Source: Desulfocurvibacter africanus subsp. africanus DSM 2603 (GTDB lineage Bacteria; Desulfobacterota; Desulfovibrionia; Desulfovibrionales; Desulfovibrionaceae). Taken from it: 64,000 nt of DNA. Under the pieces are notes generated by a model. It was not told where the DNA came from. It was given only the letters and a program-made list of their open reading frames with translations, and did not search any database. A program made the translations under genes and the position numbers. Within the stretch, counting starts at the first letter, position 1. Each line of letters begins with the position of its first letter. Positions 49,100-64,000 of this stretch are shown here, in pieces. The DNA is taken from the NCBI RefSeq assembly GCF_000422545.1, contig NZ_AULZ01000001.1:62001-126000 (forward strand). The letters run 5' to 3'.

Positions 49100-50014
49100 A
49101 TGCGTGAACCCCTGACAATTCCCGCGCGGCAGGAACGCGTGCGCGCCTTTCTGGACCGCCTGGGCGCGACTCCGCCGCAAGTCCTGCTCCTGGAGGGCGG
49201 CCACGATCCCGAGCGCGAGGCTCTGGCCCTGTATTGGGCCTGTCGCCTCAACTGCGCGCGCTCCCTGGCTTGCAAGTCGGATCAGCCGGTCCAAACCGCG
49301 CTGCTCGCTCCGGCTGGTCAGCCCAAGGTCGAACCTTGTGGCGCATGCCCCGAGTGCGTGCAGATCCTGGAGCAGGTCCACCGCGATCTCGTGTTCATCG
49401 ACGGCCGGACCGAGAGCATCAAGATAGACATGGTCCGCGAGCTGCGCTCGCTCATGGGCGAGCCGCCCAGGGGCCAGGGCAAGCGGGTCATAGTGCTTTT
49501 CGAAGCTCAGGCCCTGCAGCCCGAGGCAGCCAACTTCCTGCTCAAGTCCATGGAGGAGCCCAGGCCGGGCAACGTGTTCGTGCTTACCGCGCCGCAACGC
49601 GAGCGACTGCTGCCCACGCTCGTCTCGCGCAGCTTTGTGCTGACCCTGGCCTGGCCCGAGGTCTGGGAAGCCGAACCCGTGGCCGGCGAAGGCGAGAACG
49701 CGTCCGAATGGGCAGGCGCCATGGGCGAGTTCTGGCGCACTGGACGCGGCTGGTTCGAGCGTACCTCTGACAAGGGCCGTCTGGATGCCCCTCTTGCCGC
49801 CCGCGTGCTCGTGGAGTGCCAGCGCGCCTTGGCCGGCGCATTGTCGGGCCGTGAAGAATTCGGCCAAAGCCTGCGGGGTCTTGGCCCCGAGTCCCTGCGC
49901 CGGCTCGATGCCGCCTTGGACATGGCCCAGGAATGCCTGGAATACAGGGTCAATCCGGCTCTGACCCTAGACTGGCTGGCCGTAACCGGCTTCTCCCTGA
50001 CGCGAGGGCAATAA
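49100..50014 (+). CDS. holB: DNA polymerase III delta-prime subunit
   Basis: A 304-residue clamp-loader subunit. The N-terminus has the degenerate P-loop VLLLEGGHDPEREALA, typical of delta-prime, which does not hydrolyse ATP. A zinc module includes CGACPEC (about 80-86). The SRC-like arm reads LPTLVSRSF near residue 175, preceded by NFLLKSMEEPRPGNVFVLTA. It is part of the complex that opens the beta clamp. It ends five bases before the DUF1848 gene, so both are likely on one transcript. Confidence 0.85.
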   Translation: MREPLTIPARQERVRAFLDRLGATPPQVLLLEGGHDPEREALALYWACRLNCARSLACKSDQPVQTALLAPAGQPKVEPCGACPECVQILEQVHRDLVFIDGRTESIKIDMVRELRSLMGEPPRGQGKRVIVLFEAQALQPEAANFLLKSMEEPRPGNVFVLTAPQRERLLPTLVSRSFVLTLAWPEVWEAEPVAGEGENASEWAGAMGEFWRTGRGWFERTSDKGRLDAPLAARVLVECQRALAGALSGREEFGQSLRGLGPESLRRLDAALDMAQECLEYRVNPALTLDWLAVTGFSLTRGQ

Positions 50015-50019
50015 GGCCC

Positions 50020-51042
50020 ATGCGCTGGCCGCGCGTAGACATCGACACGCCGCACGGCCCACGTCAGGCCATCGCCCCGGCCGTGATAACGGCAAGCCGC
50101 GCCACGGACATACCGGCGTTCCATTCAGGCTGGATGCTCAACCGGCTGGCGGTTGGCTGGTGCCGTTGGGACAACCCCTTCGGCGGCCCGGCGCAATACG
50201 TATCCTTCGCGCGCCTGCGGGCCGTGGTCCTGTTCACCAAGAATCCCCGACCCGGCCTGGGCCTGCTGCGCGAACTGGAGCGCCGAAGCCTGCCTTTCTA
50301 CATCCACGTCACGCTAAACGACTACGAAACGGAAGGCTGGGAGTCCGGCCTGCCCAGCCTGGACCAGCGAGTGCAGAATTTCGCGGAGCTGTCGCACCAG
50401 TTGGGCCGCGAGCGCGTGATCTGGCGTTTCGACCCTCTGCTGTGCAGCGAAGCCACGCCTCCGCCCGAGCTGCTGCGCAGGCTGGAATCCCTGTGCGAGC
50501 GGCTGCACGCGCACACCGAACGTCTCGTGTTCAGCTTCGCGCACCTGGAGCGCTACGCCAAGGTGCGCCGCAATCTGACAGCGGCCGGAGTGCGGGCGCG
50601 CTCGTTCACCACGGCCGAGATGCGCGACATGGCCGGTCGCATCGCGGACCTCTGCCGCGTATGGGGCCTAGCGCCCACCGCCTGCGGAGAAGAGCTTGAT
50701 TTCACGGATTGCGGGATAGAGCGCGGTCGCTGCGTAGACCCGGCGCTTCTCCTGCGCCTGGCTCCGGACGATGCGGAACTTGCCCGGCTGTATGGACCGC
50801 GCCGCACAGGACAAGGCTTGCTGCCCGGCGCGCCGGGTCCGGCAGGCAGCCCCAAGGATGCAGGCCAGCGCAAGGCCTGCGGCTGCGCGCCGGCTAAGGA
50901 CATCGGAGGCTACACTACCTGCGGCCACGGCTGCGTGTACTGCTATGCCAACAGCTCACCAGATGCCGGGAGGCGCAACGCCGCGCGAGTCGATGCGCAT
51001 TCCGAGGCGCTGAAGCCCGGCGGTGCGGAATCGATGGGCTAA
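50020..51042 (+). CDS. DUF1848 family protein with C-terminal cysteine cluster
   Basis: A 340-residue protein. It opens with AVITASRATDIPAFHSGWML and has VVLFTKNPRP, VTLNDYETEGWESGLPSL and VIWRFDPLLC, all DUF1848 features. The end shows KACGCAPAKDIGGYTTCGHG followed by CVYCYAN, a C-x3-C-x2-C pattern like that of radical SAM proteins, but at the C-terminus, plus an earlier CGC. DUF1848 has no established function; a Fe-S enzyme fold with circularly placed cluster ligands is inferred. The start at 50020 lies eight bases after the holB stop. Repeat copy 3 starts at its stop codon. Confidence 0.8.
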   Translation: MRWPRVDIDTPHGPRQAIAPAVITASRATDIPAFHSGWMLNRLAVGWCRWDNPFGGPAQYVSFARLRAVVLFTKNPRPGLGLLRELERRSLPFYIHVTLNDYETEGWESGLPSLDQRVQNFAELSHQLGRERVIWRFDPLLCSEATPPPELLRRLESLCERLHAHTERLVFSFAHLERYAKVRRNLTAAGVRARSFTTAEMRDMAGRIADLCRVWGLAPTACGEELDFTDCGIERGRCVDPALLLRLAPDDAELARLYGPRRTGQGLLPGAPGPAGSPKDAGQRKACGCAPAKDIGGYTTCGHGCVYCYANSSPDAGRRNAARVDAHSEALKPGGAESMG

Positions 51043-51265: not shown

Positions 51266-51919
51266 CTACTTGTGACGTTTGAGATGCCTTACAGACCAAG
51301 CCGCCATGGAACGTACCCACTCACTGCGATCCTCCAACGCGTTTGCGATCACTATCTCCAAGTCCAGGTCTCTTTGAGTGCCGAGAATGCCCAAGCCGTT
51401 GATTGCCGCGCCTCGAACGAGCGGGTGCGGGTCCTGAGCCATGCTGGCCACGATAAAGCGCAGTTGCGGCTGGCGTAGGTCACATAAAGCGAAAACGGCC
51501 TCGCGGCGGATTTCCCAGAATGGATCCTCCAAGGCGTCGAGAAAACAGGACTGATCACTGCATAGCCCGCGTAAACCGCGGAGGACGGCCAGCCGCTCCT
51601 GATCCCCGCCACGGTTCAGGGCGCGGCGCAGCACGGGCACGGATCGCTTGTCGCCCAGCCGGTTGAGCACGTGAACGGCCTCCATTTGCCGCCGGTCCCA
51701 GGTCTGCTGTTTCAGGAGTTCATGCAGCAAGGGAACGCAAGCCAAGCCAAGACGAATAAGGCCCGATGCGGCACTATAACGGATAGCCATTTCGTGGCTG
51801 CCGAGTCGTTCCACAAGGCGCTGCATCTCTTCCTTTTGGCTAGGATCGTGCGGAGGAGCCTCTGGATTGTGCCGTTGAAAAGCGGGAGCGGCAAATAGCA
51901 ACGGGGGTTTAGCGATCAA
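51266..51919 (-). CDS. HEAT-repeat protein closing the mop accessory operon
   Basis: A 217-residue protein. From about residue 32 it is made of HEAT/PBS-lyase-like helix pairs: AIRYSAASGLIRLGLACVPL, RQMEAVHVLNRLGDKRSVPV, ERLAVLRGLRGL, WEIRREAVFALCDL, HPLVRGAAINGLGILG and EWVRSMAAWSVRHL. Such repeats bind protein partners. A TTG start at 51919 overlaps the ligase stop by 11 bases with GGAG upstream; an ATG at 51826 with AGGA is the alternative and would remove a Pro-rich leader. It may serve as a scaffold for the enzymes of the operon. Confidence 0.72.
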   Translation of the reverse strand: MIAKPPLLFAAPAFQRHNPEAPPHDPSQKEEMQRLVERLGSHEMAIRYSAASGLIRLGLACVPLLHELLKQQTWDRRQMEAVHVLNRLGDKRSVPVLRRALNRGGDQERLAVLRGLRGLCSDQSCFLDALEDPFWEIRREAVFALCDLRQPQLRFIVASMAQDPHPLVRGAAINGLGILGTQRDLDLEIVIANALEDRSEWVRSMAAWSVRHLKRHK

Positions 51920-53276
51920 TGGCTATACTCCATACGGCGTTTGGCAGGTAGGATGTTTCCTCGCGCTGTCGCAGGTCACGGATACGTCGCTTGCCCGGAG
52001 GAGGCAGGCATGAAGCGTCCTCCGACATGCCCAGCTCCAGGCGCAGACTGTTGTCTTCAATGGCCTCGCGCAGGCCGGGCGTTTGTTTGATTCGCGAACG
52101 CGCCTCGTCCAACAGGCGCTGGTGATGCGCAGGCTGCGTGGGCGACCAGAGCGTCACGCGCAGAATGTCGGTCCCATCCTGATCCGTCAGCAGGGCCTCG
52201 TGAAAGGACAGATCCTCCAAGGGCCACAGCGCTTCGTCGAGGGCAGCGGATTGAAGACCGTGCACGCCCGTATCGCCCCGGCCACGCACCATGAGACGCG
52301 GGAGGCTGGTGCCGCAGGGACATGGTTCGGACAGCAGGCGGCCCAGATCGCCGGTGCGGTAGCGCAGCAAGGGCATGCCGCGCCGGCGGAGAGTCGTCAG
52401 CACCACCTCGCCTTCCTGCCCGACGGGCAGGGGTTGGCCGCTGACCGGATCGACGGTCTCCACGTACAGGTCCGCCTCGCGCAAGTGTGCTCCGGCCTGG
52501 GCGCGGCATTCCACGCCGCCGCCGAGACCTGTCTCGGTCAGTCCATAATGCACGAAGACCTCGCAGCCCAGGGCCTGGGCGATGGCCTCGCGTAACGCAG
52601 GTGTGACCGGATCGCCCGAGAGCAGTACCGAGCCGACATCGCCAGGCCTGAGCATGCCCGTCAGCCTGCCATGGCGCGCCACGGCCAGGACTTGGGAAGG
52701 AATGCCGACCAGGCCGTCGCTGCCGTGGGCCGCGACTGCGCGCACGGCTTCGTCCAGATTCTGCACGAAGCCGTGGCAATGGCAGGTCGCGCCGACGCGC
52801 CGCAGGCCGCGCGCGAGCAGGTCGCCCACGCTTCCCGGCCGTTGGCCCGGCATGAACAGGAGCACTCTGCCCCCGGAGCCGATCATGGTTGTCATGCCAT
52901 GCGCGAAAAAATCGATGGTGTGCTCCAGGTCGTCATGGGTAAAGAAAAGCCGCTTGGGCCGGCCAGTTGTGCCCGAGGTGTCCATAGTCACCACGCGTTC
53001 GATTTCGCCCTGGGAGACGCACAGCAGCCGGAGCGGATCGCGCCGCAGATCTTCGGGAGCCGTGAAAGGCAGCCGCGCCAGATCATCCAGGCAGCACAAG
53101 TCGTCGCCCCGTATGCGCAGCCGCTCGCCGTAAAAGGGGCTGTTGGTGACCGCATGATCCAGGGTGCGGCGCAGCGCTTCGAGTTGCCAAGCGCGCACAT
53201 GCTCCAGACTTAAGGCTTCGGGCCCAACTCCCACGAGTTGGGCGATCCAGGCGTGCAGGGGCGTGCGCGGGATCAT
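51909..53276 (-). CDS. AMP-dependent CoA ligase, DVU_1553-like family
   Basis: A 455-residue PaaK-type adenylating enzyme. The A3 motif is VTMDTSGTTGRPKR (about 95-108), A5 is HYGLTETGLGGG (about 237), and LLRYRTGDLGRLLSEPCPCG (about 304) leads into a C-terminal domain. It differs from the ligase at 45187 in having VLLFMPGQRPGSVGDLL and a longer tail, and in lacking the usual lysine-containing end of PaaK. It matches the family I recall as DVU_1553 in D. vulgaris, always placed with the radical SAM and methyltransferase genes. It overlaps the radical SAM gene by four bases. Confidence 0.82.
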   Translation of the reverse strand: MIPRTPLHAWIAQLVGVGPEALSLEHVRAWQLEALRRTLDHAVTNSPFYGERLRIRGDDLCCLDDLARLPFTAPEDLRRDPLRLLCVSQGEIERVVTMDTSGTTGRPKRLFFTHDDLEHTIDFFAHGMTTMIGSGGRVLLFMPGQRPGSVGDLLARGLRRVGATCHCHGFVQNLDEAVRAVAAHGSDGLVGIPSQVLAVARHGRLTGMLRPGDVGSVLLSGDPVTPALREAIAQALGCEVFVHYGLTETGLGGGVECRAQAGAHLREADLYVETVDPVSGQPLPVGQEGEVVLTTLRRRGMPLLRYRTGDLGRLLSEPCPCGTSLPRLMVRGRGDTGVHGLQSAALDEALWPLEDLSFHEALLTDQDGTDILRVTLWSPTQPAHHQRLLDEARSRIKQTPGLREAIEDNSLRLELGMSEDASCLPPPGKRRIRDLRQREETSYLPNAVWSIAIDR

Positions 53277-54691
53277 CCCCGCCCCCGATGCAGCGGCGTG
53301 CCGTCGGCAGCGGTCAGGTTCCAGGCGCAGAACGGGACCAGCCGCCCGTCCGGCGAAACGACATGGATGCAGCAGCCTTGCAGCCGCTCCAGATCCAGGG
53401 TCCAGGCATCCTGGAAGGCCATGGCCGAAACAGTGAAGGTGGATCGCGCCTGATCCAGGAAGAGATCGAAATCGCCCTTGGCACGGCTAGCGGTATTGTC
53501 CGGCGACGTGTCCAAGGGCTTGGGCGCTACCCATTCCCTGGCCACCCGCGCCACGGCGCGGCGAGAGCCTTCCTCGGCCGGAATGGGATCTGTCTTGGGA
53601 CCGCAGCAACCGCCGGTTTTCAGCGGCTTGAGTTTGCCGTCCAGCGTGCGCACGTACGTGGCGTGGAACGAACAGAGGGCGTGTTCGCAGCCCGGCGGTT
53701 CGAAGTGCGCGGCGCACAGCATGCCGTCGGTCTGCGCTTCGAGCAGACGCATGATTTCCGGCAGGGTGATGCGCTCGCCGTCGGGCGCGCCCGGAAAGCG
53801 GCCAAAGCGGCTCATGGGCTGGATGTGCACGCCGCGTACGCCGATGCCCATGCTCAGGGCGTACTCGACGATCGGGCCAAGGGCCTGCTCGTTGACGCCC
53901 GGCGCGAGCGTGGGCACCAGCACCACGCCCAGACCCAATTCCAGGCAGCGCTCCACCGCGAGCAGTTTGCGATGCAGGAGCGGCCGACCGCGCAGGACGC
54001 GGTACGTTTCGTCGTCCATGGCGTCGAACTGCAGGAAGACAGAGGCCAGGCCCGCATTACGCAAGGTCTGGGCATAGACCGCGTCCTGGGCCAGGCGCAG
54101 GCCGTTGGTGTTGAGCTGGATGAAGGAAAAGCCGCGTTCGCGGCCCAGGGCCACGATCTCGGGCAGATCGTCGCGCACGGTCGGCTCGCCGCCCGAGAGT
54201 TGGATGTTGCACGGCCCGGAGGCGGCCATGACCCGCTCGTACCAGAAACCGATGCGCGCCAGGTCCGGATCTCCGGCCGGGTCAGTCCCTCCCGCCGAGG
54301 CAAAGCAGACCGGGCAGGCCAGGTTGCAGCGCGCGGTGACCTCAAGCAGGGCCGTGCAGGTGTGCTGGCCGTGCTCCTCGCACAGGCCGCAGTCGTGCGG
54401 GCAGCCCTTTTCGCGGCAGGTGAGGCTCAGGCGCGGCGCGGACGGAAGCTTGGGCCGTTTCCAGGCCTCGAAATCCGGCGCGCCGCGCCATATAGGCGCG
54501 CTGAAGCGCCCGTGTTCCGGGCAATCCTTGATCAGCCAGGTCGTATCTCCCTGGCCGACACGACGCGCGTCCACGCTGCGCAGGCAGATCGGGCAGACGC
54601 TGCGGGTTGCGCCGTGATCGCGCGAAGTTTCCTTGGTCTGTTTCCATGCGCCCCGTCCGTCTGTGGGCGGTATGTGCGGTTTACCAGTCAT
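53273..54691 (-). CDS. Radical SAM protein, TrsS/DVU_1554-like
   Basis: A 472-residue enzyme. Before the radical SAM domain there is a cysteine-rich front part: SVCPICLRSVDARR, KDCPEHGRF, CREKGCPHDCGLCEEHG. The radical SAM motif is ARCNLACPVCFASAGG (about 123), with GGEP-type QLSGGEPTVRDDLP. C-terminal cysteines (GCEHALC, KTGGCCGP, GCCIHVV) suggest additional Fe-S clusters. The general layout resembles the MJ0619-type enzymes of C1 metabolism. In the DVU_155x set it is named TrsS in public annotation, as I recall. The ATG at 54691 is preferred over a GTG at 54700. It overlaps the C-GCAxxG gene by 11 bases. Confidence 0.82.
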   Translation of the reverse strand: MTGKPHIPPTDGRGAWKQTKETSRDHGATRSVCPICLRSVDARRVGQGDTTWLIKDCPEHGRFSAPIWRGAPDFEAWKRPKLPSAPRLSLTCREKGCPHDCGLCEEHGQHTCTALLEVTARCNLACPVCFASAGGTDPAGDPDLARIGFWYERVMAASGPCNIQLSGGEPTVRDDLPEIVALGRERGFSFIQLNTNGLRLAQDAVYAQTLRNAGLASVFLQFDAMDDETYRVLRGRPLLHRKLLAVERCLELGLGVVLVPTLAPGVNEQALGPIVEYALSMGIGVRGVHIQPMSRFGRFPGAPDGERITLPEIMRLLEAQTDGMLCAAHFEPPGCEHALCSFHATYVRTLDGKLKPLKTGGCCGPKTDPIPAEEGSRRAVARVAREWVAPKPLDTSPDNTASRAKGDFDLFLDQARSTFTVSAMAFQDAWTLDLERLQGCCIHVVSPDGRLVPFCAWNLTAADGTPLHRGRG

Positions 54692-55148
54692 GATGCTCAC
54701 CCGGCGGCAGCGTGGGGTCGATGCCGCTCTCCTGCAGGAGTTCCAGGGATTTGCTCCAAGCCGAGGCGATCAGACCGCCGCAGCGGCCGGGGTCCGGCCT
54801 TCCCGCGGAGCCCTCACCCAGGATATCGGCGCAACGTATGCCCGCACAGCCGGCGCAGGCCTGCGTGCCGAACCACTCGACCAGTTCCGTAATCATGAGC
54901 GGCAGCCGGTCGTGCGCGGTCTCGTCGTCCGCGCCCTTGCCCGCGTAATAGGAGATCAGGCAGGCCGAGCCAGTGAGCACGCCGCACAACTCGCCGCAGC
55001 CGCCCAGCCCGTTGCCCAGCCCGCCCACGGCGCGCACCAGGTCCGGGTTCTCGCGGCCGGTCATCTCCAGGGCCAGGAGCAGCAGGATCTGACTGCAGTT
55101 GTAGCCCTTGCCGTGCAGCCGCATGAGCGTCAGGTCCAGATCATCCAT
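54681..55148 (-). CDS. C-GCAxxG-C-C family protein, DVU_1555-like
   Basis: A 155-residue protein. The family motif appears as KGYNCSQILLLL (Cys near residue 18), then GLGGCGELCGVLTGSACLIS and CAGCAGIRC. These cysteines probably hold a cluster, as in the family often paired with redox proteins. Its core is also used in the split-Soret cytochrome at 33961. GGAG lies seven bases before the ATG at 55148, and the start overlaps the methyltransferase stop. Its place between radical SAM and methyltransferase genes is the conserved DVU order. Confidence 0.82.
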   Translation of the reverse strand: MDDLDLTLMRLHGKGYNCSQILLLLALEMTGRENPDLVRAVGGLGNGLGGCGELCGVLTGSACLISYYAGKGADDETAHDRLPLMITELVEWFGTQACAGCAGIRCADILGEGSAGRPDPGRCGGLIASAWSKSLELLQESGIDPTLPPGEHHDW

Positions 55149-55983
55149 GTCGAGACTCCATTTTGCGGGCCACGAGCAGATAGTAACCGGCGCGGGGCCG
55201 TCGAGCGTTCGAACCGTGGCCGCAACGGCACCCCTGGTCCGACCTTGCATCGCCGGTACGGCCGAGGAACGTCTCCAGCGGAATGCCCGCGAAGACCAGC
55301 TCGGCCGCGAAGCGTTTGAGCAGCGGCGTGTGGTCCTCCACGAGCAAAGGCTCGAATCCGGCCGCGCGCACCAGTTCGAGCACGTTTTCCAGAGGCAGCG
55401 CGCCGTCCAGACACGATGCGGGACAAGGCGCATTGTGCAGCGGCTCGCGGCGATCCAGGGCATACAGGTCGCTCAGCGCCAGCATCCCGCCGGGCCTGAG
55501 CACGCGGTGCCATTCGCCAAGCGCCTGGCCGGGGTCCGGCAACAGCGAGAGGACACATTCGCTGAGAATGCCGTCCAGACATCCGTCGCCAAACGGCAAC
55601 TGCTGGGCCTGGCCGCGTAAAACGGGCAGCTCGGGCCGTGCGCGGCAGCGCGCAAGCTGGTCCAGAGATCGGTCGATGCCCAGGGGAACGAGGCCCATGC
55701 CGCACATGAACTCCAGGCTGTCGCCAGCGCCGCAGCCCGCGTCCAGCACGCGCGCGCCGGGCGGCAAGGCACAGATCTCCAGAGCCCGTGCCGTGAGCGT
55801 CAGTCCGCCGGGCCGCAGCATGCGGCCTTCGAAGCCGGTCGGCGCTTCCAGCTTGCCGGAATGATCTGAAGGAGGCGCAAGCTGACCGGCACGCAGCAAG
55901 GCGAGCCGCTCCCATGGCTCATCCACTCCGCCACGACTGGCCCCACATTCATGGATGCCGGCGTGGCGCATTGCCTCGCTCAC
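55141..55983 (-). CDS. SAM-dependent methyltransferase, TrsM/DVU_1556-like
   Basis: A 280-residue class I methyltransferase. Motif I is ARVLDAGCGAGDSLEFMCGM (about 77-96), followed by PLGIDRSLDQLARC, the acidic post-motif LDGILSECVLSLLPDPGQAL, and the motif III area VLRPGGMLALSDLYAL. The GTG start at 55983 overlaps the stop of the zinc-ribbon gene and has GGAGG four bases upstream; a downstream ATG (55971) is possible. The open frame further upstream runs antisense-like through the neighbour and is a shadow. The methyl acceptor is unknown. Confidence 0.82.
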   Translation of the reverse strand: MSEAMRHAGIHECGASRGGVDEPWERLALLRAGQLAPPSDHSGKLEAPTGFEGRMLRPGGLTLTARALEICALPPGARVLDAGCGAGDSLEFMCGMGLVPLGIDRSLDQLARCRARPELPVLRGQAQQLPFGDGCLDGILSECVLSLLPDPGQALGEWHRVLRPGGMLALSDLYALDRREPLHNAPCPASCLDGALPLENVLELVRAAGFEPLLVEDHTPLLKRFAAELVFAGIPLETFLGRTGDARSDQGCRCGHGSNARRPRAGYYLLVARKMESRHG

Positions 55984-56195
55984 TTGTCCTCCAGGATCTG
56001 CTCCACCTCGTGCATCTTGCCCAAGGCCAGCTCCTCGGGCACCAGCACCTGGCCGCAGGTCTTGCAGACCGGCAGCTCCACCACGAACTCGTTGCCCATG
56101 TATTCGAGCGCGACAGGGCCGGGTGTCATTTCCTCGCCGCAGGCCGCGCAACGCCAGCCGCGATACTTTTCCATCAACTCCGGGAATCGTTGCAT
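55980..56195 (-). CDS. Small zinc-ribbon redox protein, DVU_1557-like
   Basis: A 71-residue protein with two paired cysteine motifs: RCAACGEEM (about 15-23) and VCKTCGQVLV (about 43-52), which suit a zinc ribbon or rubredoxin-like site. The family is annotated in public databases as a DVU_1557 family redox protein, as I recall. It lies three bases after the large redox protein and overlaps the methyltransferase start. Confidence 0.8.
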   Translation of the reverse strand: MQRFPELMEKYRGWRCAACGEEMTPGPVALEYMGNEFVVELPVCKTCGQVLVPEELALGKMHEVEQILEDK

Positions 56196-56198
56196 GGC

Positions 56199-58547
56199 TT
56201 ACCCCTTTATGCCCAGCACGCGCATGCGGTGGCACCAGGCGCGATGCACTCGGAAGCGCTCGCCGCCAAGTGGCTCGTACTCCACCCAGTAGGTCACGGC
56301 CGCCGGACGGTGCGAGGCCATGAGCCGATTGCCACCCTCCTGGGCCAGCGCCCGGCCGCTGGCCTGCACCGCATGGATGGTCTGCTTCACGTCCTCGGCC
56401 AGGATGCGCCGCTGGTCCACGGCCAGGCGCACCTCGGGCTCCATCTCCAGTTCAAGTGTTTCCCAGGGTTCCATCTGCGGAGTCTCCTTGCCGGCCTGAG
56501 CCAACAGCGCTCGCTTGAGCCGGGCGCGGTTCTCGTGGCGGTCGGCCGTGCCGGGCCCCTTGCGCACGTAGGGCTCGGGACTAGCGGGTTGCACTGCGTC
56601 CGGCGATTCCGGAAAGATCAGGTCGAGCAGGTGTGTGACCCGTTTGCCGCTGCGCGAGAGGCTGTCGCGGCACATGGCGCAATAGGCCAGATAGTCGCGC
56701 TCGCTCTGCTTTGCTCGGCGCAAAGCGAACTCGCGGCCCATGTCCGGGTTGGCCGCTTCCATGAGCCCGCCGTAGCCGCAGCACAGGGTCCGCTCGCGCG
56801 AGAGCGCCAGCTCCTCGATGGGCGCGGCCAGCCGCGTGAGCAGTTCGCGCACGGAATCAAGGAACCTGGGCTGGTCGCGCGCCGTGCATGGGTCGTGCAG
56901 CGCATGGACCGCATCCGGCGCGGCCGCGCCCTCGGGCAGGCTGGTTTTCAGCAGAACTTCCCATAACGGGACTGTCTCCACTCCGGGCAGATGGTCGCGG
57001 AAGGTCGCTCCGCAGGTCGGACAGGCCAGGATCAGCTTGGGCTTGCCGAGTTTTTCCCAGGCCGCGTGCACGCGCGCCAGTTGAGGCTGCAGCATGTCCT
57101 CCCGCGCGGCCCACTGCGCGGGCGCGCCGCAACAGTGCAGCATGATGCCCACGCCGGTCAGCTTTTCCCGCAGGTGCGCCAGGGTGCGTTGCACGTGGTC
57201 AGGCGACGCGCCCGAGAGCTGGCAACCGGGGAAGAAGAGGTATGCGCATGCGCCGAGTTCGCCGGATTCGTCCGTTCCCCGCGCATCAAGCAATAGTGAA
57301 GCAGCCTCCGAGGTGTTGAACTCCAGGTCGCGCAGAGCGAAATCGTGCGCCGAGAGCGGCATCTTCTTCGTCTTGACCATCTCGGCGCGAGCCTGGGCGC
57401 AAAGGTCGGCCATAAAGAAGTCGTTGGGGCAGACGGTCTCGCACAGCCCGCAGTAGCTGCAGGAGTTGATGAGCTTGTTGGCCTGGCGCAGACCGTGGAT
57501 CACGGAGAGATTGTTGTAGATCTCGCGCGCGTATTTGCGCGGATAGCCCTTGTAGCGCTCCAGGTAGGCGCAGACCTTGACGCACTCCATGCACTCGCAC
57601 TGCAGGCAGCGCGACGCCTCGGCCGCGGCCTCCTCGGGCAGGTAGCCTCCGGGCTCGGCCGTGGGCACGGCGGGTTTGCGTTCCACCCCCTCGATGGAGG
57701 TGAACAGCCGCGTCGCGCACGGACCCTCCTTCTCGCGCGAGGCAGTCATGGAGACCACCTGCACGAGGCGGTCCATGGATACGGCGGCCTTGCGGCCCTG
57801 CGCGGCCAGGCCGATGGGCGAAAGCGGCCCAAGCGGCTGCACGCCGCCCGCGAACACGCCCGGCATGGACGTCGCCAAACTCAGCGGCTCCAGCTTCGGC
57901 GTTCCGTCCCGCTCGGTCTCCAAGCCCAGCTTGGCGGCGTCCGGCGGGGTGCGCTCGTCGAAGCCCACGTAGACCGCGTCATGCTCATCGGCCAGCCGCT
58001 TCAGGGTGGCGGCTTCCAGGGGCAGGCCGGGATGCAGGGTCACGCGCAGCATTTTCAGCCGTTCCAGCTCGGCCGAGAGCGCCGCGCGAGGCAACCGTTC
58101 CTCGGGCAGGTCGAGCAGCGTGCCGCCCGGTTCATCGCTGAAGAGCGAAACCGCATAGCCCTTCCTGCCCATGTCCCAGGCCACGGTCAGGGCGCTCAGG
58201 CCGCCACCGACCACGGCCACTCGCTTGCCGCGCGGCGGCAGAGGAAGCAGGCGGCCCCTGGCCTTGGTGTTGAGCGTGCAGGCGCGCTCCAGTTCACCGA
58301 TGTGGATGGACTCTTCCACGTCGCCCCTGCGGCAGCTCGCCTCGCAGGGATGATCGCAGATGAGGCCCAGCACGCCCGGCAGTGGCATGGTGCGTTCGAG
58401 CACCGCCCGCGCGCCAGCCATGTCGCTAGCCGCCAGAAAACGAGTCAGCGCCCGCACGTCCACATGGATGGGACAAGCGGCCTGACAAAACGGCGGCTCT
58501 TCCTGGATGCAGCGGTGTTCCCAGTCGCGAAGCTCCTGCTGTTCCAT
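56199..58547 (-). CDS. FAD/NAD-linked Fe-S oxidoreductase with CCG domains, DVU_1558-like
   Basis: A 782-residue redox protein. The N-terminus is GltD-like with cluster cysteines (FCQAACPIHVDV, CDHPCEASCRRGDV). The dinucleotide fold is RVAVVGGGLSALTVAWDMGR (about 106-125), though the second half of the NAD-binding part seems short. Two ferredoxin-type clusters follow: CLQCECMECVKVC (about 317) and CSYCGLCETVC (about 361). Two CCG domains as in HdrB/GlpC follow: FFPGCQLSG with LHCCGAPA, and TLCCGYGG with YCAMC. The C-terminal ~110 residues are unique. It probably takes electrons from the aldehyde oxidoreductase. GGAGG lies seven bases before the ATG at 58547. Confidence 0.84.
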   Translation of the reverse strand: MEQQELRDWEHRCIQEEPPFCQAACPIHVDVRALTRFLAASDMAGARAVLERTMPLPGVLGLICDHPCEASCRRGDVEESIHIGELERACTLNTKARGRLLPLPPRGKRVAVVGGGLSALTVAWDMGRKGYAVSLFSDEPGGTLLDLPEERLPRAALSAELERLKMLRVTLHPGLPLEAATLKRLADEHDAVYVGFDERTPPDAAKLGLETERDGTPKLEPLSLATSMPGVFAGGVQPLGPLSPIGLAAQGRKAAVSMDRLVQVVSMTASREKEGPCATRLFTSIEGVERKPAVPTAEPGGYLPEEAAAEASRCLQCECMECVKVCAYLERYKGYPRKYAREIYNNLSVIHGLRQANKLINSCSYCGLCETVCPNDFFMADLCAQARAEMVKTKKMPLSAHDFALRDLEFNTSEAASLLLDARGTDESGELGACAYLFFPGCQLSGASPDHVQRTLAHLREKLTGVGIMLHCCGAPAQWAAREDMLQPQLARVHAAWEKLGKPKLILACPTCGATFRDHLPGVETVPLWEVLLKTSLPEGAAAPDAVHALHDPCTARDQPRFLDSVRELLTRLAAPIEELALSRERTLCCGYGGLMEAANPDMGREFALRRAKQSERDYLAYCAMCRDSLSRSGKRVTHLLDLIFPESPDAVQPASPEPYVRKGPGTADRHENRARLKRALLAQAGKETPQMEPWETLELEMEPEVRLAVDQRRILAEDVKQTIHAVQASGRALAQEGGNRLMASHRPAAVTYWVEYEPLGGERFRVHRAWCHRMRVLGIKG

Positions 58548-58596
58548 GGATAAACCTCCGGGTTGCATCGCCTGCCGTGATTGCATTCGCGGCGGC

Positions 58597-58634
58597 AAAG
58601 AAAGTCCCCGGAGCGGACGAGCCGCTCCGGGGAC
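58597..58634 (-). terminator. Strong intrinsic terminator/attenuator just after mop
   Basis: A perfect 13-base-pair stem GTCCCCGGAGCGG / CCGCTCCGGGGAC with a five-base loop, followed on the minus strand by TTTCTTT. It lies 12 bases past the mop stop and about 50 bases before the next start. It should stop most transcripts, leaving mop more abundant than the accessory genes. Confidence 0.88.
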
Positions 58635-58646
58635 GAGTCCGACGGA

Positions 58647-61373
58647 CTAAGCCTTAGCCTGCAAACCAGCGAGAACCTTCTCGGGGTACGCGGGCATGTG
58701 CGTGATGCGCACGCCGCAGGCATTGTAGATGGCGTTGATGATGGCCGCATGCGGGCTGGTCAGAGGCAGTTCGCCTGCGCCGGCCGCGCCGTGGGGGCCG
58801 TGCTTGCGCTGGGATTCCACGTAGATCAGTTCCATGTCGTCCGGAATGTCCTTTATGTAGGGCAGGCCGGCTCCAGCCATGGTGGAGTGCTTCTGGATGT
58901 CCTCGAAGTCCTCGGACAGCGCCAGGCCGATGCCTTGGGCCAGACCGCCCCACATCTGGCCATCCGCGGCCAGCTTGTTGGCGATCTTGCCGATATCGGC
59001 AACCATGGTCATCTTGTCCACGCTGGTCTTGCCCGTAGCCGTTTCCACGCTGACCTGAGCCATGAACACGCCGTACATGTATACGACAAATGGGCAGCCC
59101 TGGCCGTTGGCGTCGCAGTGCGTGCCTTCGTTGGCCGTGAACTTGCCAGCGTATCTGGTCTCCTTGCCGGCGGCCTTCATCTCCGCATAGGTCATGTAGC
59201 CTCCGCCGGGCTTCTTTGCGCCCTGCAGGAGCTTTTCGCAGGCATCCTTGATGGCGTTGCCCACCATGACCTGAGAGCGAGAGCCGCCGGCCGGACCGGA
59301 GTTGGGATTCTGGGTGCTGGCCCAGGTGAACTTCAGCTTGCCCGGCTCCACGCCCATGGGCCGCAGGGCTTCGTGGGCGGTGCTTACGGCGCCGATGTCC
59401 GCGCCCTGGCCGTGATCCTCCCAGGCGCTGATAACGGTGATGGTGCCGTCGGCATTCAGCTCCACGTCGGCTTCGGCGGAGTCCGGGCCGTCCAGGCCGC
59501 AGCCGTACACGCCGACAGCGACGCCCACGCCCTTCTTGACCGCAGCCGTGGATTCGGCCTTGGCTTTTTTCTTGGCCGCTTCATACTTGGGCCGCAGGAT
59601 ATCGATCATCTCCGGCAGGCTGTAGACCTCCGGAGCCTGTCCCGTGGGATTGGTGGAACCCTCGCGGTAGGCGTTCTTGTAGCGCAGCTCCAGCGGATCC
59701 ATGCCCAGCTTCTCGGCCAGTATGTCCATGAGCGACTCCGAGGCGAAGAAACTCTGCGGCGAGCCGTAGCCGCGGAAGGCCGAACCCCAGGCGTGGTTGG
59801 TGCACACGGTGCGGCCCAGGCCACGGATGTTGGGGATATGGTAGCCCGCACCGATAAACTGCACTCCGCGCAGGGTCAGCAGGTCGCCGAACTCCGAGTA
59901 GGGACCGTGGTCCACGGAATAGTCGTGTTCCATGGCCTTGAGTGTGCCGTCCTTGTCCGCCGCCAATTTAAGATTGATGAACCAGGGCGAGCGTTTGCCG
60001 GTGTACTGTTGCTGCTGCTGATAATTGTAGCGCAGGTGCACCGGCCGACCGGTGGCCAGGGCGGCCACGCCGACCAGGGCCTCCATGGTGGGGCTGAACT
60101 TGTAGCCGAAGGTGCCGCCCATGGGGTTGGCCACGAGCACCAGCTTCTCGGGCTCCACGCCCAGGCCAGGAGCGATCATATACAGGTGCAGATGCACGCC
60201 GATGGACTTGGAGTGGATGTAGAGCTTGCCGTCCTCGCCCTTGTAGGCGAAGCCGACGTCGGGCTCCATGGGCATGTGCGGCTGACGCTGCAGGTAGAAG
60301 TCGCCTTCCACCGTGACGTGGCCGTCGCCGTTGAAGAACGGCGCGGTGTCCCCGCCCTTGGCCAGCTTCTGCTCGAAGTAGACGTTGGGCGTGCCGGGGT
60401 GGATCTCGATGGCGTCCTCGGCCATGGCCGCCGGAGCGCTCATGTAGGCCGGCAGCTCCTCAAGGTCCACCTTGACCTTCTCGGCCGCCTTGCGGGCGTT
60501 GCACTCGGAATCGGCGCAGACGATGGCGATGGCGTCACCGTACTGGAAGACCTTTTCGTCGCACAGGATGGGGCGGTCCCAGCCGTCGCCCTTGTTGGTG
60601 GGGAAGGTGATCAGGCCGGTGATGCGGTTCTTGCCCTTTACGTCCTTGTGCGTGAGCACCGAGTGCACGCCGGGCATTTTGAGGGCCTCGGAAGTGTCAA
60701 TGCCCTTAATGTTGGCGTGGGAAACCTTGGCCTGGACCAGGGCCATGTGCAGCGTGTCCTTGGGCATCTTCACGCCCAGGTCCGCGCCGTAGTCCAGCGT
60801 GCCGGTGACCTTGGCCACGGCCGTGGGGCGGGGGTACTTGGAGCCCCAGATACGTTGGTCGTCGGGCATCTTGAAGGCCAGGTCATCCATGCTCATCTCG
60901 CCGCGCACGACCTTGGCCGCGTCCATGACCGCGTCCACCAGGGGCTTGTAGCCGGTGCAGCGGCAGGCGTTGCGGTGCTTCTGGAACCAGTCGCGCACGT
61001 CCTGGCGGGACGGATTCTGGTTGGATTCCAGCAGGCCCACGGCCGAGACGATGAAGCCTGGCGAGCAGAAGCCGCACTGGGCCGCGCCGTGCGCGATCCA
61101 GGCCTGCTGCACGGGATGCAGCTTGTCCGGCGTGCCTATGCCCTCGATGGTGGTGACCTTGGCGCCATCTGCGATGCGCTTCATCTTCATGGCGCACGAG
61201 CGCACGACCTTGCCGTCCAGGATCACGCTGCACGCGCCGCATTGGCCCTGGTCGCAGCCGACCTTGGTGCCGGTCAGGCCCAGCTGCTCGCGCAGCACGG
61301 TTGCCAGACTGGCCTCCGGATCGACGATGACGTTGTGTTCCACTTCGTTGACGCTGAATACTTTTTGAATCAT
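58647..61373 (-). CDS. mop: Aldehyde oxidoreductase, molybdenum hydroxylase of the xanthine oxidase family
   Basis: A 908-residue single-chain enzyme oxidising aldehydes to acids. Cluster II ligands are C40, C45, C48 and C60 (VGCDQGQCGACSVILDG); cluster I ligands are C100, C103, C137 and C139 (QCGFCSPGF, RNACRCTGY). The residue numbers equal those of the D. gigas MOP enzyme (907 residues). The molybdenum domain has GGTFGYKFSP, AWGSAFRGYGSPQ and near the end AAGAGELPLTSPHA, with the catalytic Glu at residue 868. It binds molybdopterin cytosine dinucleotide. It has no FAD domain, so electrons must leave via a partner, probably the large redox protein downstream. AAGGAG lies ten bases before the ATG. 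Confidence 0.95.
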   Translation of the reverse strand: MIQKVFSVNEVEHNVIVDPEASLATVLREQLGLTGTKVGCDQGQCGACSVILDGKVVRSCAMKMKRIADGAKVTTIEGIGTPDKLHPVQQAWIAHGAAQCGFCSPGFIVSAVGLLESNQNPSRQDVRDWFQKHRNACRCTGYKPLVDAVMDAAKVVRGEMSMDDLAFKMPDDQRIWGSKYPRPTAVAKVTGTLDYGADLGVKMPKDTLHMALVQAKVSHANIKGIDTSEALKMPGVHSVLTHKDVKGKNRITGLITFPTNKGDGWDRPILCDEKVFQYGDAIAIVCADSECNARKAAEKVKVDLEELPAYMSAPAAMAEDAIEIHPGTPNVYFEQKLAKGGDTAPFFNGDGHVTVEGDFYLQRQPHMPMEPDVGFAYKGEDGKLYIHSKSIGVHLHLYMIAPGLGVEPEKLVLVANPMGGTFGYKFSPTMEALVGVAALATGRPVHLRYNYQQQQQYTGKRSPWFINLKLAADKDGTLKAMEHDYSVDHGPYSEFGDLLTLRGVQFIGAGYHIPNIRGLGRTVCTNHAWGSAFRGYGSPQSFFASESLMDILAEKLGMDPLELRYKNAYREGSTNPTGQAPEVYSLPEMIDILRPKYEAAKKKAKAESTAAVKKGVGVAVGVYGCGLDGPDSAEADVELNADGTITVISAWEDHGQGADIGAVSTAHEALRPMGVEPGKLKFTWASTQNPNSGPAGGSRSQVMVGNAIKDACEKLLQGAKKPGGGYMTYAEMKAAGKETRYAGKFTANEGTHCDANGQGCPFVVYMYGVFMAQVSVETATGKTSVDKMTMVADIGKIANKLAADGQMWGGLAQGIGLALSEDFEDIQKHSTMAGAGLPYIKDIPDDMELIYVESQRKHGPHGAAGAGELPLTSPHAAIINAIYNACGVRITHMPAYPEKVLAGLQAKA

Positions 61374-61512
61374 GCTGACATCGCTCCTTTCCGTACGGTT
61401 CAAGGGAGCGGGAAGCCCCGGCCGCGGCCGACTCGGCTCGCCAAAGACGGCGGCCCGGTCCGGGTCCTTGCCCGCGTATCGCGTCCCCCATGGGGGGTCA
61501 CTCCTTTTGTGA

Positions 61513-62538
61513 TCAGCCGCCTTTGCCGAAACCGCAGACCGGATAACGGCACTCGGCGCAGCCCGCGCAGTAGCCTCCGTGGCCCAGGGCCACGATGTCC
61601 TCGCGCTCGATGCTCTCGCCCGCCACGATGCGCGGCACAACCAGATCGAAGATGCTTGCGCCCGCGTACATGACGCAGCCCGGCAGCCCCACCACCGGCA
61701 CGTCGCCGATGTTGGCCAGCATGAACATGGCCCCGGGGAAGGTCGGCGCGCCGTAGGTAACCACCTGGCCACCAGCGGCGCGGATGCCGGCGGGAGTCTG
61801 GTCGTCGGGGTCCACGGACATGCCGCCGGTCACGGCGATGAGCTCGGCGCCCATGGTCAGCAGCGCGCGGATCGCCTCCACGGTCATCTCCACCTTGTCC
61901 GGCACGAACATCTGCTCGATCACGGTGCAGCCCAACTCACTGAACTTGCGCCGCAGCACGGGACCGAACTTGTCCTTGATGCGGCCGTGGTAGACCTCGC
62001 TACCCGTGGTCACGATGCCCACGCCCAGGCGGCGGAAGGGCCGCACCTCGATAAGGGGAGCATGTTCGCGGCAGATGGCCTCCACCGTCTCGATGCTTTC
62101 GTTGTCGATGACCAGCGGCACGACTCGTGTGCCGGCCACGGCGCGGCCTCTGACCACGCGTTGATTCGTGTGGATGGTGGACAGGACGACCTGCTCGACG
62201 GAATTGACTTCCCGGAGAGCGCCGGTGCGAATTTTTAGCAGCCCGTCATGGGTCGCGTGGAAGTTTATGCGCCCTTCACAGGGTTGGCCCAGTGTCAGGC
62301 CGGGACCAGCCGCGGCCCTGGCGATGCGCAGGGCTGCGTCGTCCTCGTGCACCTGCCCTTCATGCAGATCGAAGACGTAGATGTGCTCCTTGCCCAGGTC
62401 GAGCAGCGTGGGCACGTCTTCCTCGCGGATCACGTGGCCGCGCTTGAAGGCCCTGCCCTTGAACTCGCCGGGGATGATGCGGGTGATGTCGTGGCAGAGC
62501 ACGCTGCCCACGGCCTGCCGCACGGGAATGCTTTTCAT
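61513..62538 (-). CDS. Molybdopterin-binding (MoeA-like) protein heading the mop operon
   Basis: A 341-residue protein. It starts with VRQAVGSVLCHDITRIIPGE, a MoeA-N type segment, and its middle is a MoCF-like domain: LGVGIVTTGSEVYHGRIKDK, AELIAVTGGMSVDPDDQTP, and VVGLPGCVMYAGAS. The C-terminal tail YCAGCAECRYPVCGFGKGG is Cys-rich and not part of MoeA. It lacks the full MoeA fold (about 400 residues). It could insert molybdenum or hold the cofactor for delivery to Mop; the Cys tail suggests a metal or sulfur role. GAGGA lies nine bases before the ATG. mop follows after 139 bases. Confidence 0.82.
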   Translation of the reverse strand: MKSIPVRQAVGSVLCHDITRIIPGEFKGRAFKRGHVIREEDVPTLLDLGKEHIYVFDLHEGQVHEDDAALRIARAAAGPGLTLGQPCEGRINFHATHDGLLKIRTGALREVNSVEQVVLSTIHTNQRVVRGRAVAGTRVVPLVIDNESIETVEAICREHAPLIEVRPFRRLGVGIVTTGSEVYHGRIKDKFGPVLRRKFSELGCTVIEQMFVPDKVEMTVEAIRALLTMGAELIAVTGGMSVDPDDQTPAGIRAAGGQVVTYGAPTFPGAMFMLANIGDVPVVGLPGCVMYAGASIFDLVVPRIVAGESIEREDIVALGHGGYCAGCAECRYPVCGFGKGG

Positions 62539-62742: not shown

Positions 62743-63408
62743 ATGAGCAAGAACAAATACGTGCGCAAATCACGCATGTCCGAAGATGAGTTCAAAAAAC
62801 TGGTCAATCTCTTCGCCCTGGACATGGACGCCGCGAGTATCGCCGAGGCGCTGGGTTTTTCGCGCAACACCGTCAACGCCTACCTGCACCGCATCCGTCG
62901 ACGCATCGCCGAGCACTCGATGCAGTTCTCCCTGGAACTGCAGACCCTGGGCGAGCGTTTCTTTGTGTTGCGTCAGGCTGGACGTAGGCACGAGCCGGCC
63001 GGTCCGGTGGTCATCTACGGTGCGATCCAGCGCAACCGCACAATCTACGTGGACGTGCATGCCGAGCGGCTGCGCGAAGCGCTCGATACCATCTTTAGCG
63101 GCAGAATGTACGTGGAGGGCACGCTGGACCCCATGACCGGGGAGCGCTTCAGCACCTATGTGGATCTGGATTTCGGCGAGGAAGGCGTATTCGAGCCCAA
63201 ACAAGGCTTCGTCGTGCAGCGCCACAGCCCGGCCGAGGAACTGCCGCGTTTCCTGCTCTTCACCAGAAGCCGCATCCACAGGCTGCGCGGCATTCGCGCC
63301 GAGGTATTCCCCCTGCACCTCAAAGAGACCGAATTCCGCTTCAATTTTAGCGGAGTAAGCATTTACTCCATGCTCATGCGTCTGTTCACCGAGCGCAGGT
63401 TGGAATGA
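62743..63408 (+). CDS. IS1595/ISXO2-transposase-like DNA-binding protein, probable domesticated regulator
   Basis: A 221-residue protein. The N-terminus has a helix-turn-helix: MSEDEFKKLVNLFALDMDAA, SIAEALGFSRNTVNAYLHRI. A middle part GPVVIYGAIQRNRTIYVDVH resembles the RNase-H-fold strand pair of IS1595 transposases (the pattern V-F-G-L-x-K-R-x-G-x-V-Y). The usual N-terminal zinc ribbon and the D-E-x-Y-F catalytic segment are not seen, and there are no flanking terminal repeats or target duplications. So it is more likely a transposase-derived regulator than an active element. It is divergent from the mop operon with a 204-base shared gap. Confidence 0.6.
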   Translation: MSKNKYVRKSRMSEDEFKKLVNLFALDMDAASIAEALGFSRNTVNAYLHRIRRRIAEHSMQFSLELQTLGERFFVLRQAGRRHEPAGPVVIYGAIQRNRTIYVDVHAERLREALDTIFSGRMYVEGTLDPMTGERFSTYVDLDFGEEGVFEPKQGFVVQRHSPAEELPRFLLFTRSRIHRLRGIRAEVFPLHLKETEFRFNFSGVSIYSMLMRLFTERRLE

Positions 63409-63518: not shown

Positions 63519-64000
63519 TCATGTCGCGTGATTATCCACGAGAGCCGTAAGCAGCTCCTCCTGCAGGACAAGGTTAGGCAGCTTTTCGTCCGAAATGATG
63601 CGCTCGCCGCCGGTGTAGACATTCATTCGCGTGGCCCGCAAATGACCTATCAGCGTAATGCCCAGATTCTCCGCCATCTCCACGGCCAGGCTTGTGGCCA
63701 CGGACAGCCCTGCGAGCATCTCGAGGCCGAGGGCTCCGGCCTTCTGGACCATCTCGAAACTCAAGCGGGACGATACGATGCCCAGATAGGCGAGATCCCT
63801 GGCGTCGGCGGCGAGCACCGCGCCTATGGCCTTGTCCAGGGCGTTGTGGCGGCCGATGTCCTCGGCAAAGGCGAGCAGCTCGTGGCGGGCGTCGAAGATG
63901 GCGGCGAAATGGGTGGCCCCGGTCTGGTGAAACAGCCCTTGCCGCTTTTCAATGCTGCTCTTCAAGCCCAGGAGAGTGTTGCGGTTGATCGCATGAACCG
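63519..64000 (-). CDS. fdhD: FdhD, sulfur carrier for formate dehydrogenase maturation (N-terminus outside window)
   Basis: The C-terminal 160 residues are present, with the frame open to the window edge. Visible features are KRQGLFHQTGATHFAAIFDA, FAEDIGRHNALDKAIGAVL, GIVSSRLSFEMVQKAG and TLIGHLRATRMNVYTGGERI, all characteristic of FdhD. FdhD carries sulfur from IscS to the molybdenum or tungsten bis-MGD cofactor of formate dehydrogenase. The catalytic cysteine pair lies in the missing N-terminal part. It is convergent with the transposase-like gene and separated by 110 bases with no clear terminator. Confidence 0.88.
   Translation of the reverse strand, partial: VHAINRNTLLGLKSSIEKRQGLFHQTGATHFAAIFDARHELLAFAEDIGRHNALDKAIGAVLAADARDLAYLGIVSSRLSFEMVQKAGALGLEMLAGLSVATSLAVEMAENLGITLIGHLRATRMNVYTGGERIISDEKLPNLVLQEELLTALVDNHAT

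Follow-up and report, generated by a model that had tools for sequence, protein, structure and literature searches.

Among the closest described counterparts of the system analyzed here is the molybdopterin-dependent aldehyde oxidoreductase (Mop) of Desulfovibrio gigas, the first mononuclear molybdenum enzyme whose crystal structure was reported. In the portions of the literature available to us, this enzyme is described with an ordinary pyranopterin cytosine dinucleotide, two [2Fe-2S] clusters, no flavin and an oxo group where a sulfido ligand would be expected; aldehyde oxidation with the cytosine dinucleotide cofactor and a broad substrate range are reported. The same portions treat Mop as a stand-alone enzyme that likely serves energy supply or possibly detoxification, with an acceptor, flavodoxin, that is only proposed, and the word 'operon' does not occur in the accessible part of a 2023 history of the enzyme. 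We analyzed a 64,000-nucleotide stretch of the Desulfocurvibacter africanus subsp. africanus DSM 2603 genome (contig NZ_AULZ01000001.1, positions 62,001 to 126,000; hereafter the window) in which a mop gene is followed on the minus strand by a redox protein and a group of genes around the radical S-adenosylmethionine (SAM) protein TrsS. The window Mop and the D. gigas enzyme (1sij and related entries) can be aligned from end to end (77% identity, 1638 bits) and have the same domains.

The D. gigas enzyme has the same gene set downstream of it as the window Mop. The order in that genome is MoeA, Mop, redox protein, zinc ribbon, methyltransferase, C-GCAxxG-C-C protein, TrsS, ligase, XdhC and PGM, and the Mop encoded there is 100% identical to two C-terminal stretches of the crystallized protein; MocA-HD was not seen within the D. 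gigas stretch examined. Identity between window and D. gigas proteins falls from 77% for Mop to 53% for TrsS, 50% for the redox protein and 42% for the ligase. A second described arrangement is that of the selenium-dependent molybdenum hydroxylase sets with YgfK, in which a GltD-like protein also stands beside a xanthine-dehydrogenase-like enzyme. TIGR03311 and TIGR03315, which we take to belong together in such sets, are listed relatives of window proteins that score below their cut-offs (433 against 830 bits and 94 against 835 bits, respectively). We know of no radical SAM module in these sets.

The nine genes of the window locus are the following. The first-pass annotation had given the span as 51909-62538, and the HEAT gene falls just beyond it.

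61513-62538, minus strand: MoeA-like molybdopterin-binding protein with a Cys-rich tail, 341 residues (PF00994, 86.6 bits, over cut-off)
58647-61373, minus strand: Mop, molybdopterin-dependent aldehyde oxidoreductase, 908 residues (NF045668, 1694 bits, cut-off 1100)
56199-58547, minus strand: redox protein with FAD/Fe-S, dicluster and CCG parts, 782 residues (NF045663, 1014 bits, cut-off 530)
55980-56195, minus strand: DVU_1557-family zinc-ribbon/rubredoxin-like protein with two CxxC, 71 residues (NF045645, 102 bits, cut-off 60; PF24292, DUF7479)
55141-55983, minus strand: DVU_1556-family SAM methyltransferase, 280 residues (NF045667, 232 bits, cut-off 155)
54681-55148, minus strand: DVU_1555-family C-GCAxxG-C-C protein, 155 residues (NF045669, 175 bits, cut-off 103)
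53273-54691, minus strand: TrsS radical SAM protein, 472 residues (NF045646, 652 bits, cut-off 490)
51909-53276, minus strand: DVU_1553-family AMP-dependent (PaaK-like) ligase, 455 residues (NF045666, 447 bits, cut-off 300)
51266-51919, minus strand: HEAT-repeat protein, 217 residues (PF13646)

All nine are intact open reading frames (ORFs) in series, as the annotation had said, and its description of overlaps or three-base gaps downstream of the redox protein is borne out by junctions of +3, -4, -8, -11, -4 and -11 bases, following 139 bases ahead of Mop and 99 behind it. Its statement that Mop lacks a flavin domain also holds: the match to the family model is full length (positions 2-905 of 905), the domains found are those for two [2Fe-2S] clusters and the molybdenum cofactor (PF00111, PF01799, PF01315, PF02738 and PF20256), and the Pfam scan of Mop lists no FAD domain. 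The Cys tail that it noted on the MoeA-like protein, C-x2-C-x2-C-x4-C-x-FG, is present in 12/12 printed alignment rows, the window row included. This protein passes the PF00994 (MoCF domain) model alone and reaches the cut-off of none of the 12 NCBIfam models listed, those of MoeA among them (24.8 bits against 440 for NF007960, 20.3 against 475 for NF045515), which places it outside MoeA proper. The DVU labels given in the annotation were right for DVU_1553, 1555, 1556 and 1557, the redox and radical SAM proteins having NCBIfam models of their own.

What did not stand is the claim of newness, as these families have already been named by NCBI. Seven of the nine window proteins exceed the curated cut-offs of the NCBIfam TrsS neighborhood models (NF045645, NF045646, NF045663-NF045669), and XdhC (NF045664) and DVU_1551 (NF045665) do so elsewhere in the window's genome; the models name families and give no function. 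The same gene order recurs, far above chance, in records from Thermodesulfobacteriota, Bacillota, Chloroflexota, Pseudomonadota and Acidobacteriota. The window locus is a further copy of a gene set already catalogued by NCBI curators with no function assigned. In the parts of PMC13188914 that we saw, TrsS is a table row citing Haft & Tolstoy 2025 as the source of the entry, and our literature search, which did not cover the content of Haft & Tolstoy 2025, turned up no paper on the function of the set. In the accessible parts of PMC10920352 and PMC11784015, DVU1559 appears only in proteome tables, and in those of PMC10102598 chlorate toxicity is tied to another aldehyde oxidoreductase, DVU1179. 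To this catalogue the present analysis adds a stronger coupling of the set to Mop, a likely acceptor for its electrons, a split into two modules and a weakening of the hypothesis that the set builds a cofactor.

Coupling of the set to Mop is strong. We examined a phylum sample of 247 genomes of at least 90% completeness, including the window's own (G000), and a class sample of 393 Clostridia genomes around, and including, Oscillibacter valericigenes (G247, which holds locus L038). Both centers were included because they carry the set; phylum, class and family labels were inferred from D. gigas (G665) and G247, and Fisher values on the phylum sample ignore relatedness. In the phylum sample, Mop was over cut-off in 23 genomes, TrsS in 29, the redox protein in 24 and the ligase in 28. 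Among the 23 Mop genomes, 22 had TrsS, all 23 the redox protein and 20 the ligase; in the other three the ligase matched at 275-289 bits, short of the cut-off of 300. G092, the one genome with the redox protein but without Mop over cut-off, has fragments of Mop at the ends of two contigs. Where a relative of Mop was present only below cut-off, TrsS was found in 2/20 genomes (G092 and G201) and therefore tracks the Mop family rather than its neighbors. In the Clostridia, Mop and TrsS were over cut-off in the same 17/393 genomes, in four of which (G415, G419, G432 and G470) the two lie on different contigs or 22 kb apart; three further genomes (G263, G453 and G518) gave TrsS-like matches of 341-353 bits, under cut-off, without Mop.

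Starting from TrsS gave a consistent picture. We kept 80 TrsS loci, 49 of them with at least 8 kb before and at least 5 kb after TrsS; these 49 contained Mop (40), the redox protein (43), the zinc ribbon (44), the methyltransferase (43), the C-GCAxxG-C-C protein (40) and the ligase (47). Of the 29 loci with no Mop in view, 13 had their genomes searched whole, L028 and 15 others remaining outside the count. Mop was found in 10/10 of the bacterial genomes, over cut-off in nine (in one only with neighbors in frame), the tenth match (G260, 1079.8 bits) being cut by a contig end; in L058 Mop lies just beyond the stretch, beside the redox gene. By the same search, 0/3 archaeal TrsS genomes had Mop at E 1e-80. 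In a family sample, Mop was over cut-off in 146/192 genomes, and TrsS was present in 37 of 40 Mop loci examined, which were hand-picked rather than random (one from each of 25 genera plus 15 more); L154, a locus without TrsS, has a contig that ends 0.4 kb past Mop. Counts of XdhC, MocA-HD and the phosphatase rest on self-made profiles. These data support the earlier view that the set belongs with Mop, also for pairs that are not linked.

The HEAT protein is an accessory outside the conserved core: among the 115 loci of our database it had matches only in L045 besides the window's own stretch, with a relative downstream of the set in D. gigas.

Mop itself has no flavin domain, and the 782-residue protein encoded behind it may stand in for one. 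It combines an Fe-S and FAD half of Nfn/GltD type with a 4Fe-4S dicluster, two CCG domains and a C-terminal domain of about 90 residues. Nfn/Stn transhydrogenases, GltD and dihydropyrimidine dehydrogenase share the first half (Z 23-33), but the Nfn/GltD group keeps an NAD(P)H domain, whereas the window protein lacks it and carries a fused dicluster and a pair of CCG domains of the kind seen in LutA/EtfD. Its residues 18-195 match one side of Nfn/GltD-type subunits and those from 207 on match the other, and in the alignment the NAD(P)H Rossmann domain between them is deleted, 147-157 residues being missing; for example, the 12 residues of query 195-207 span 159 residues (284-443) of the 9bov chain. 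The predicted model (pLDDT 91) matches NfnABC with Z 32.8 (305 residues across 519 of the chain) and LutA with Z 18.5 (residues 434-647); it should be noted that coverage in the fold search was good for residues 15-299 and minimal for the C-terminal 130. Twenty-five Cys residues are each conserved in at least 57/58 rows. The CCG motifs are complete, with Cys 442, 472, 473, 509 and 512 and Cys 554, 589, 590, 623 and 626 in 58/58 rows, and the GxGxxG motif for FAD keeps its first Gly in 57/58 rows and its second in 54/58. Because the NAD(P)H domain is deleted, the NCBI name 'pyridine nucleotide-disulfide oxidoreductase' is, judging from alignment and model, a misfit for this protein.

The redox protein is probably the best candidate for Mop's electron acceptor, because it is present with Mop throughout the phylum sample and because its flavoprotein half is missing where Mop is missing: the relatives in the Mop-free sets L096, L100, L101 and L102 start at profile position 301-311, without the Nfn/GltD-like half. 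In L098 (G096) and L099 (G036) no relative of the dicluster/CCG part was flagged; both have the C-terminal domain, and L098 has a DsrK-like protein as well. The earlier proposal that the CCG protein takes the electrons of Mop is thus supported (23/23 Mop genomes over cut-off; no flavoprotein half in Mop-free relatives).

The remaining genes may serve small-molecule chemistry. The predicted TrsS model (pLDDT 87) is closest to the tetraether lipid synthase Tes (GDGT-MAS, 7tol/7tom), with Z 47.8, 2.0 Å over 397 residues and 38% identity to 7tom; the next best fold is MoaA (Z 22.4). TrsS and Tes share the fold, a zinc-ribbon-like N-terminal part and a C-terminal CCIH...PFCxxN stretch. TrsS scores 322 bits against the Tes model NF045702 (cut-off 450), below family membership, and its partners, a ligase and a methyltransferase, set it apart from Tes. 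A further difference lies just ahead of the CxxxCxxC motif at 122-129 (Cys122, 126 and 129 in 75/75 rows), where Cys112 is equally invariant in 75/75 rows while the aligned Tes residue is Ile. In L081, an in-frame TGA aligns with Cys112 and is the sole credible TGA within TrsS. This position is presumably the Cys/Sec site that the NCBI description gives as characteristic of TrsS. Selenocysteine at the other TGA codons listed for TrsS was rejected, as none maps to an inner Cys of the window protein. On the strength of the modeled fold, TrsS may work like Tes without being Tes. The reactions of Tes and of related pterin methyltransferases are ground for expecting C-C or C-methyl chemistry at an unactivated carbon.

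TrsS and the ligase form one uninterrupted ORF in L033 (935-3739) and L034 (10007-12670), which suggests that the two would act in successive steps on one molecule. Fusion frames containing TGA were not counted; these two and a third case, L091, were checked as single ORFs. In L091 (9445-11178, Acetobacterium bakii), it is MocA-HD and an alpha-ribazole-phosphatase-like protein that are joined. The ligase aligns with the PaaK structure 4r1l and scores 139 bits against the phenylacetate-CoA ligase model TIGR02155 (cut-off 646), well outside that family. The methyltransferase gave general structure-search matches only, and the C-GCAxxG-C-C protein had no sequence relative in the PDB at E 0.1.

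The Mop module and the Trs module can part yet stay in one genome. Desulforhabdus (G252) has one locus with MoeA, Mop, redox protein, zinc ribbon, XdhC, MocA and PGM, and a second with a stand-alone redox C-terminal domain, zinc ribbon, methyltransferase, C-GCAxxG-C-C protein, TrsS and ligase. In G254 and G255, the Mop operon is without TrsS, whose gene is on a separate contig, and in the window's genome XdhC and MocA-HD stand together on another contig. From these splits we therefore distinguish two separable modules. Divergent from the Desulforhabdus Trs module lies a tungsten-type aldehyde oxidoreductase with HdrA- and TfrB-like genes (L024, 831-7676). We rejected this cluster as a replacement for Mop, since the genome has Mop elsewhere and no further database locus contained either the oxidoreductase or HdrA.

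A related version of the Trs core is also found without Mop. A first count gave 7/29 TrsS genomes of the phylum sample with no Mop over cut-off; two of these, G092 and G201, were dismissed as Mop-free cases because of the Mop pieces at contig ends or a contig end inside the redox gene, respectively, and their TrsS falls in the Mop clade. G109 and G132 have other molybdenum hydroxylases and no Mop. The set without any molybdenum hydroxylase, which the first-pass annotation had named as counter-evidence, was found in four genomes, none of which gave any MoCoBD domain match (G036, G070, G096 and G115). The TrsS of three is in the tree, outside the Mop-associated clade; in G036 TrsS is split over two frames and under cut-off, and was left out. 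In this tree, a quick one with SH-aLRT support only and long branches to the Tes-like outgroups, the 83 TrsS rows from Mop genomes or short contigs fall into a single group (SH-aLRT 99); Mop is in the locus for 59 of them and in the genome for another 10, the other 14 being undetermined. Outside lie five phylum-sample rows without Mop (SH-aLRT 98) and five archaeal rows (SH-aLRT 100), three of the latter from the genomes searched for Mop. Since the Mop-free TrsS fall outside the clade and the CCG relatives beside them lack the flavoprotein half, we infer that the Trs core predates its association with Mop and that this half came in together with Mop. A further suggestion of the tree is that molybdenum enzymes were not what the radical SAM core evolved for.

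Several neighbors of Mop-free TrsS genes were considered as alternative partners and rejected for want of wide recurrence: HgdB-like proteins with an activase (L096), a corrinoid activase (L100 and L101; a RACo domain occurs in archaeal L070, and relatives stand beside the Mop loci L083 and L084), an MtaA-like protein (four archaeal loci) and a DsrMK-like pair (L098). In L096 (109-3890), two HgdB-like proteins and the activase lie directly ahead of the Trs set. In the archaeal loci L070, L071, L078 and L094, TrsS stands beside the MtaA-like protein and a protein of about 190 residues of no known family, the ligase following TrsS in the first three and L094 ending within TrsS. A DUF5714 protein adjoins TrsS in L108 (6477-7295) and L109 (15301-16116), from two genomes with two Mop-like genes.

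We regard it as an evenly balanced proposition that Mop and its acceptor serve a radical SAM pathway that handles an aldehyde or carboxylic acid, organized as two joined modules. From co-occurrence, gene order, fusions, the domain deletion, predicted folds and the tree, we infer the flow of electrons, the reactions, their order and the age of the core. In the first module, Mop would hydroxylate an aldehyde to the acid, and the electrons would leave by way of its two [2Fe-2S] clusters for the 782-residue protein. This stand-in for the missing flavin domain, itself having no NAD(P)H domain, would forward them through the 4Fe-4S dicluster to two HdrB-like CCG clusters; the MoeA-like protein, XdhC, MocA-HD and the phosphatase would mature Mop. 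The second module (zinc ribbon, methyltransferase, C-GCAxxG-C-C protein, TrsS and ligase) would be an older pathway to which Mop was added. Here TrsS might act on a small molecule by radical chemistry resembling that of Tes, at a carbon that is not activated; the methyltransferase would methylate this molecule, the ligase would activate its carboxylate, and the natural substrate of Mop would be an aldehyde of this pathway. In its fullest form, the proposal is that this substrate is formed within an anaerobic pathway not yet described, where a radical SAM (seleno)enzyme with the Tes fold assembles or rearranges the carbon skeleton beside a carboxylate activated by a dedicated ligase, and that the acceptor is not flavodoxin but the NAD(P)H-domain-deleted flavo-iron-sulfur protein with HdrB-like CCG clusters, its flavoprotein half having been added when Mop was recruited. 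This we hold tentatively, at somewhat less than an even chance. If Mop is tied to a dedicated acceptor and a Tes-fold pathway, its partner and substrate become open to direct tests in sulfate reducers amenable to genetics, and there is a first handle on a pathway that occurs in several bacterial phyla.

A number of observations weigh against a Mop-linked pathway of this kind. In G209, Mop has five partners, with TrsS missing between the C-GCAxxG-C-C protein and the ligase, and the genome has no TrsS match better than E 5.7e-16. In G705 (L157), Mop stands with MoeA alone in about 59 kb, where matches to the redox model reach 22-23 bits; a second genome of the same genus has the whole set. The redox gene of G685 (L150) seems cut short, with none of the remaining set in the 4 kb left before the contig ends. 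G348, from the Clostridia sample, lacks TrsS and has half a Mop (793 bits, positions 400-905, under cut-off). In the redox protein, the second FAD motif (GGD) is degenerate: its Asp is not conserved, which makes flavin binding uncertain. No common alternative partner emerged among the Mop-free loci compared. Lastly, the acceptor published for D. gigas Mop is flavodoxin, on the basis of in vitro tests and docking in the portions of that work available to us.

The near-strict dependence of Mop on the set (the same 17/393 genomes; 22/23 in the phylum sample) would also be expected if the Trs proteins built, repaired or installed something on Mop that it requires to function, be it a modified pterin, a cluster or a protein modification. 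Other radical SAM proteins are maturases, TrsS is weakly related both to MoaA and to a maturase of tungsten enzymes and has the zinc ribbon found in the pterin-modifying family PF23545, and genes for XdhC and MocA-HD lie within the operon elsewhere. We nevertheless consider this explanation unlikely. Genomes that lack molybdenum hydroxylases altogether keep a related core, the fusion of TrsS to a CoA-type ligase suits metabolism better, and the Mop of G705 has none of the set nearby, at least in its stretch of about 59 kb. Moreover, a stable, visible modification of Mop by the Trs proteins is unlikely because D. gigas Mop, from an organism that bears the set, is reported, in the portions seen, with the ordinary cofactor and two [2Fe-2S] clusters. 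The Trs proteins may have a transient or repair role on Mop. Of the earlier interpretation, then, the tie to Mop and the CCG protein as acceptor stand, while the idea that the set builds or modifies a cofactor is weakened and the families are not new.

Radical SAM enzymes need a low-potential electron, and Mop could act as the pathway's reductase: any aldehyde would serve, as fuel rather than metabolite, and its electrons would pass through the redox and rubredoxin-like DVU_1557 proteins to drive TrsS and its auxiliary clusters. The C-terminal domain of the redox protein and the DVU_1557 protein do occur with both halves of the split operon, as such a link would, and Mop is broad in substrate according to the literature portions cited above. 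Organisms without Mop nonetheless keep TrsS and the ligase, and we judge this explanation quite improbable. Elsewhere, radical SAM enzymes use a general flavodoxin or ferredoxin, a further point on that side. A mere neighborhood of an aldehyde-detoxifying Mop and an unrelated anaerobic pathway, with shared regulation and joint spread, is likewise improbable: operons do move as units, and most of the co-occurrence is of linked genes (40/49 long loci; 37/40 family loci), but the genes co-occur unlinked in G254 and G255, with TrsS on another contig, and in 4/17 Clostridia genomes. The pathway reading, with Mop and its acceptor joined to the Trs module, is the one we prefer.

A simple scan found no sigma-70-like promoter at the locus. 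Beyond the operon end, a DUF1848 protein with a C-terminal CxxxCxxC stretch adjoins it on the plus strand (49933-51042), and a second PaaK-like AMP ligase with its C-terminal domain (PF00501, PF14535) is encoded about 5 kb past the end, also on the plus strand (45208-46377). Directly upstream of the MoeA-like gene, a divergent plus-strand gene (62743-63408) encodes a helix-turn-helix protein with a weak Sigma70_r4_2 match, possibly a regulator or a transposase-type protein, and an FdhD/NarQ protein is encoded upstream of the operon on the minus strand (63519-63965).

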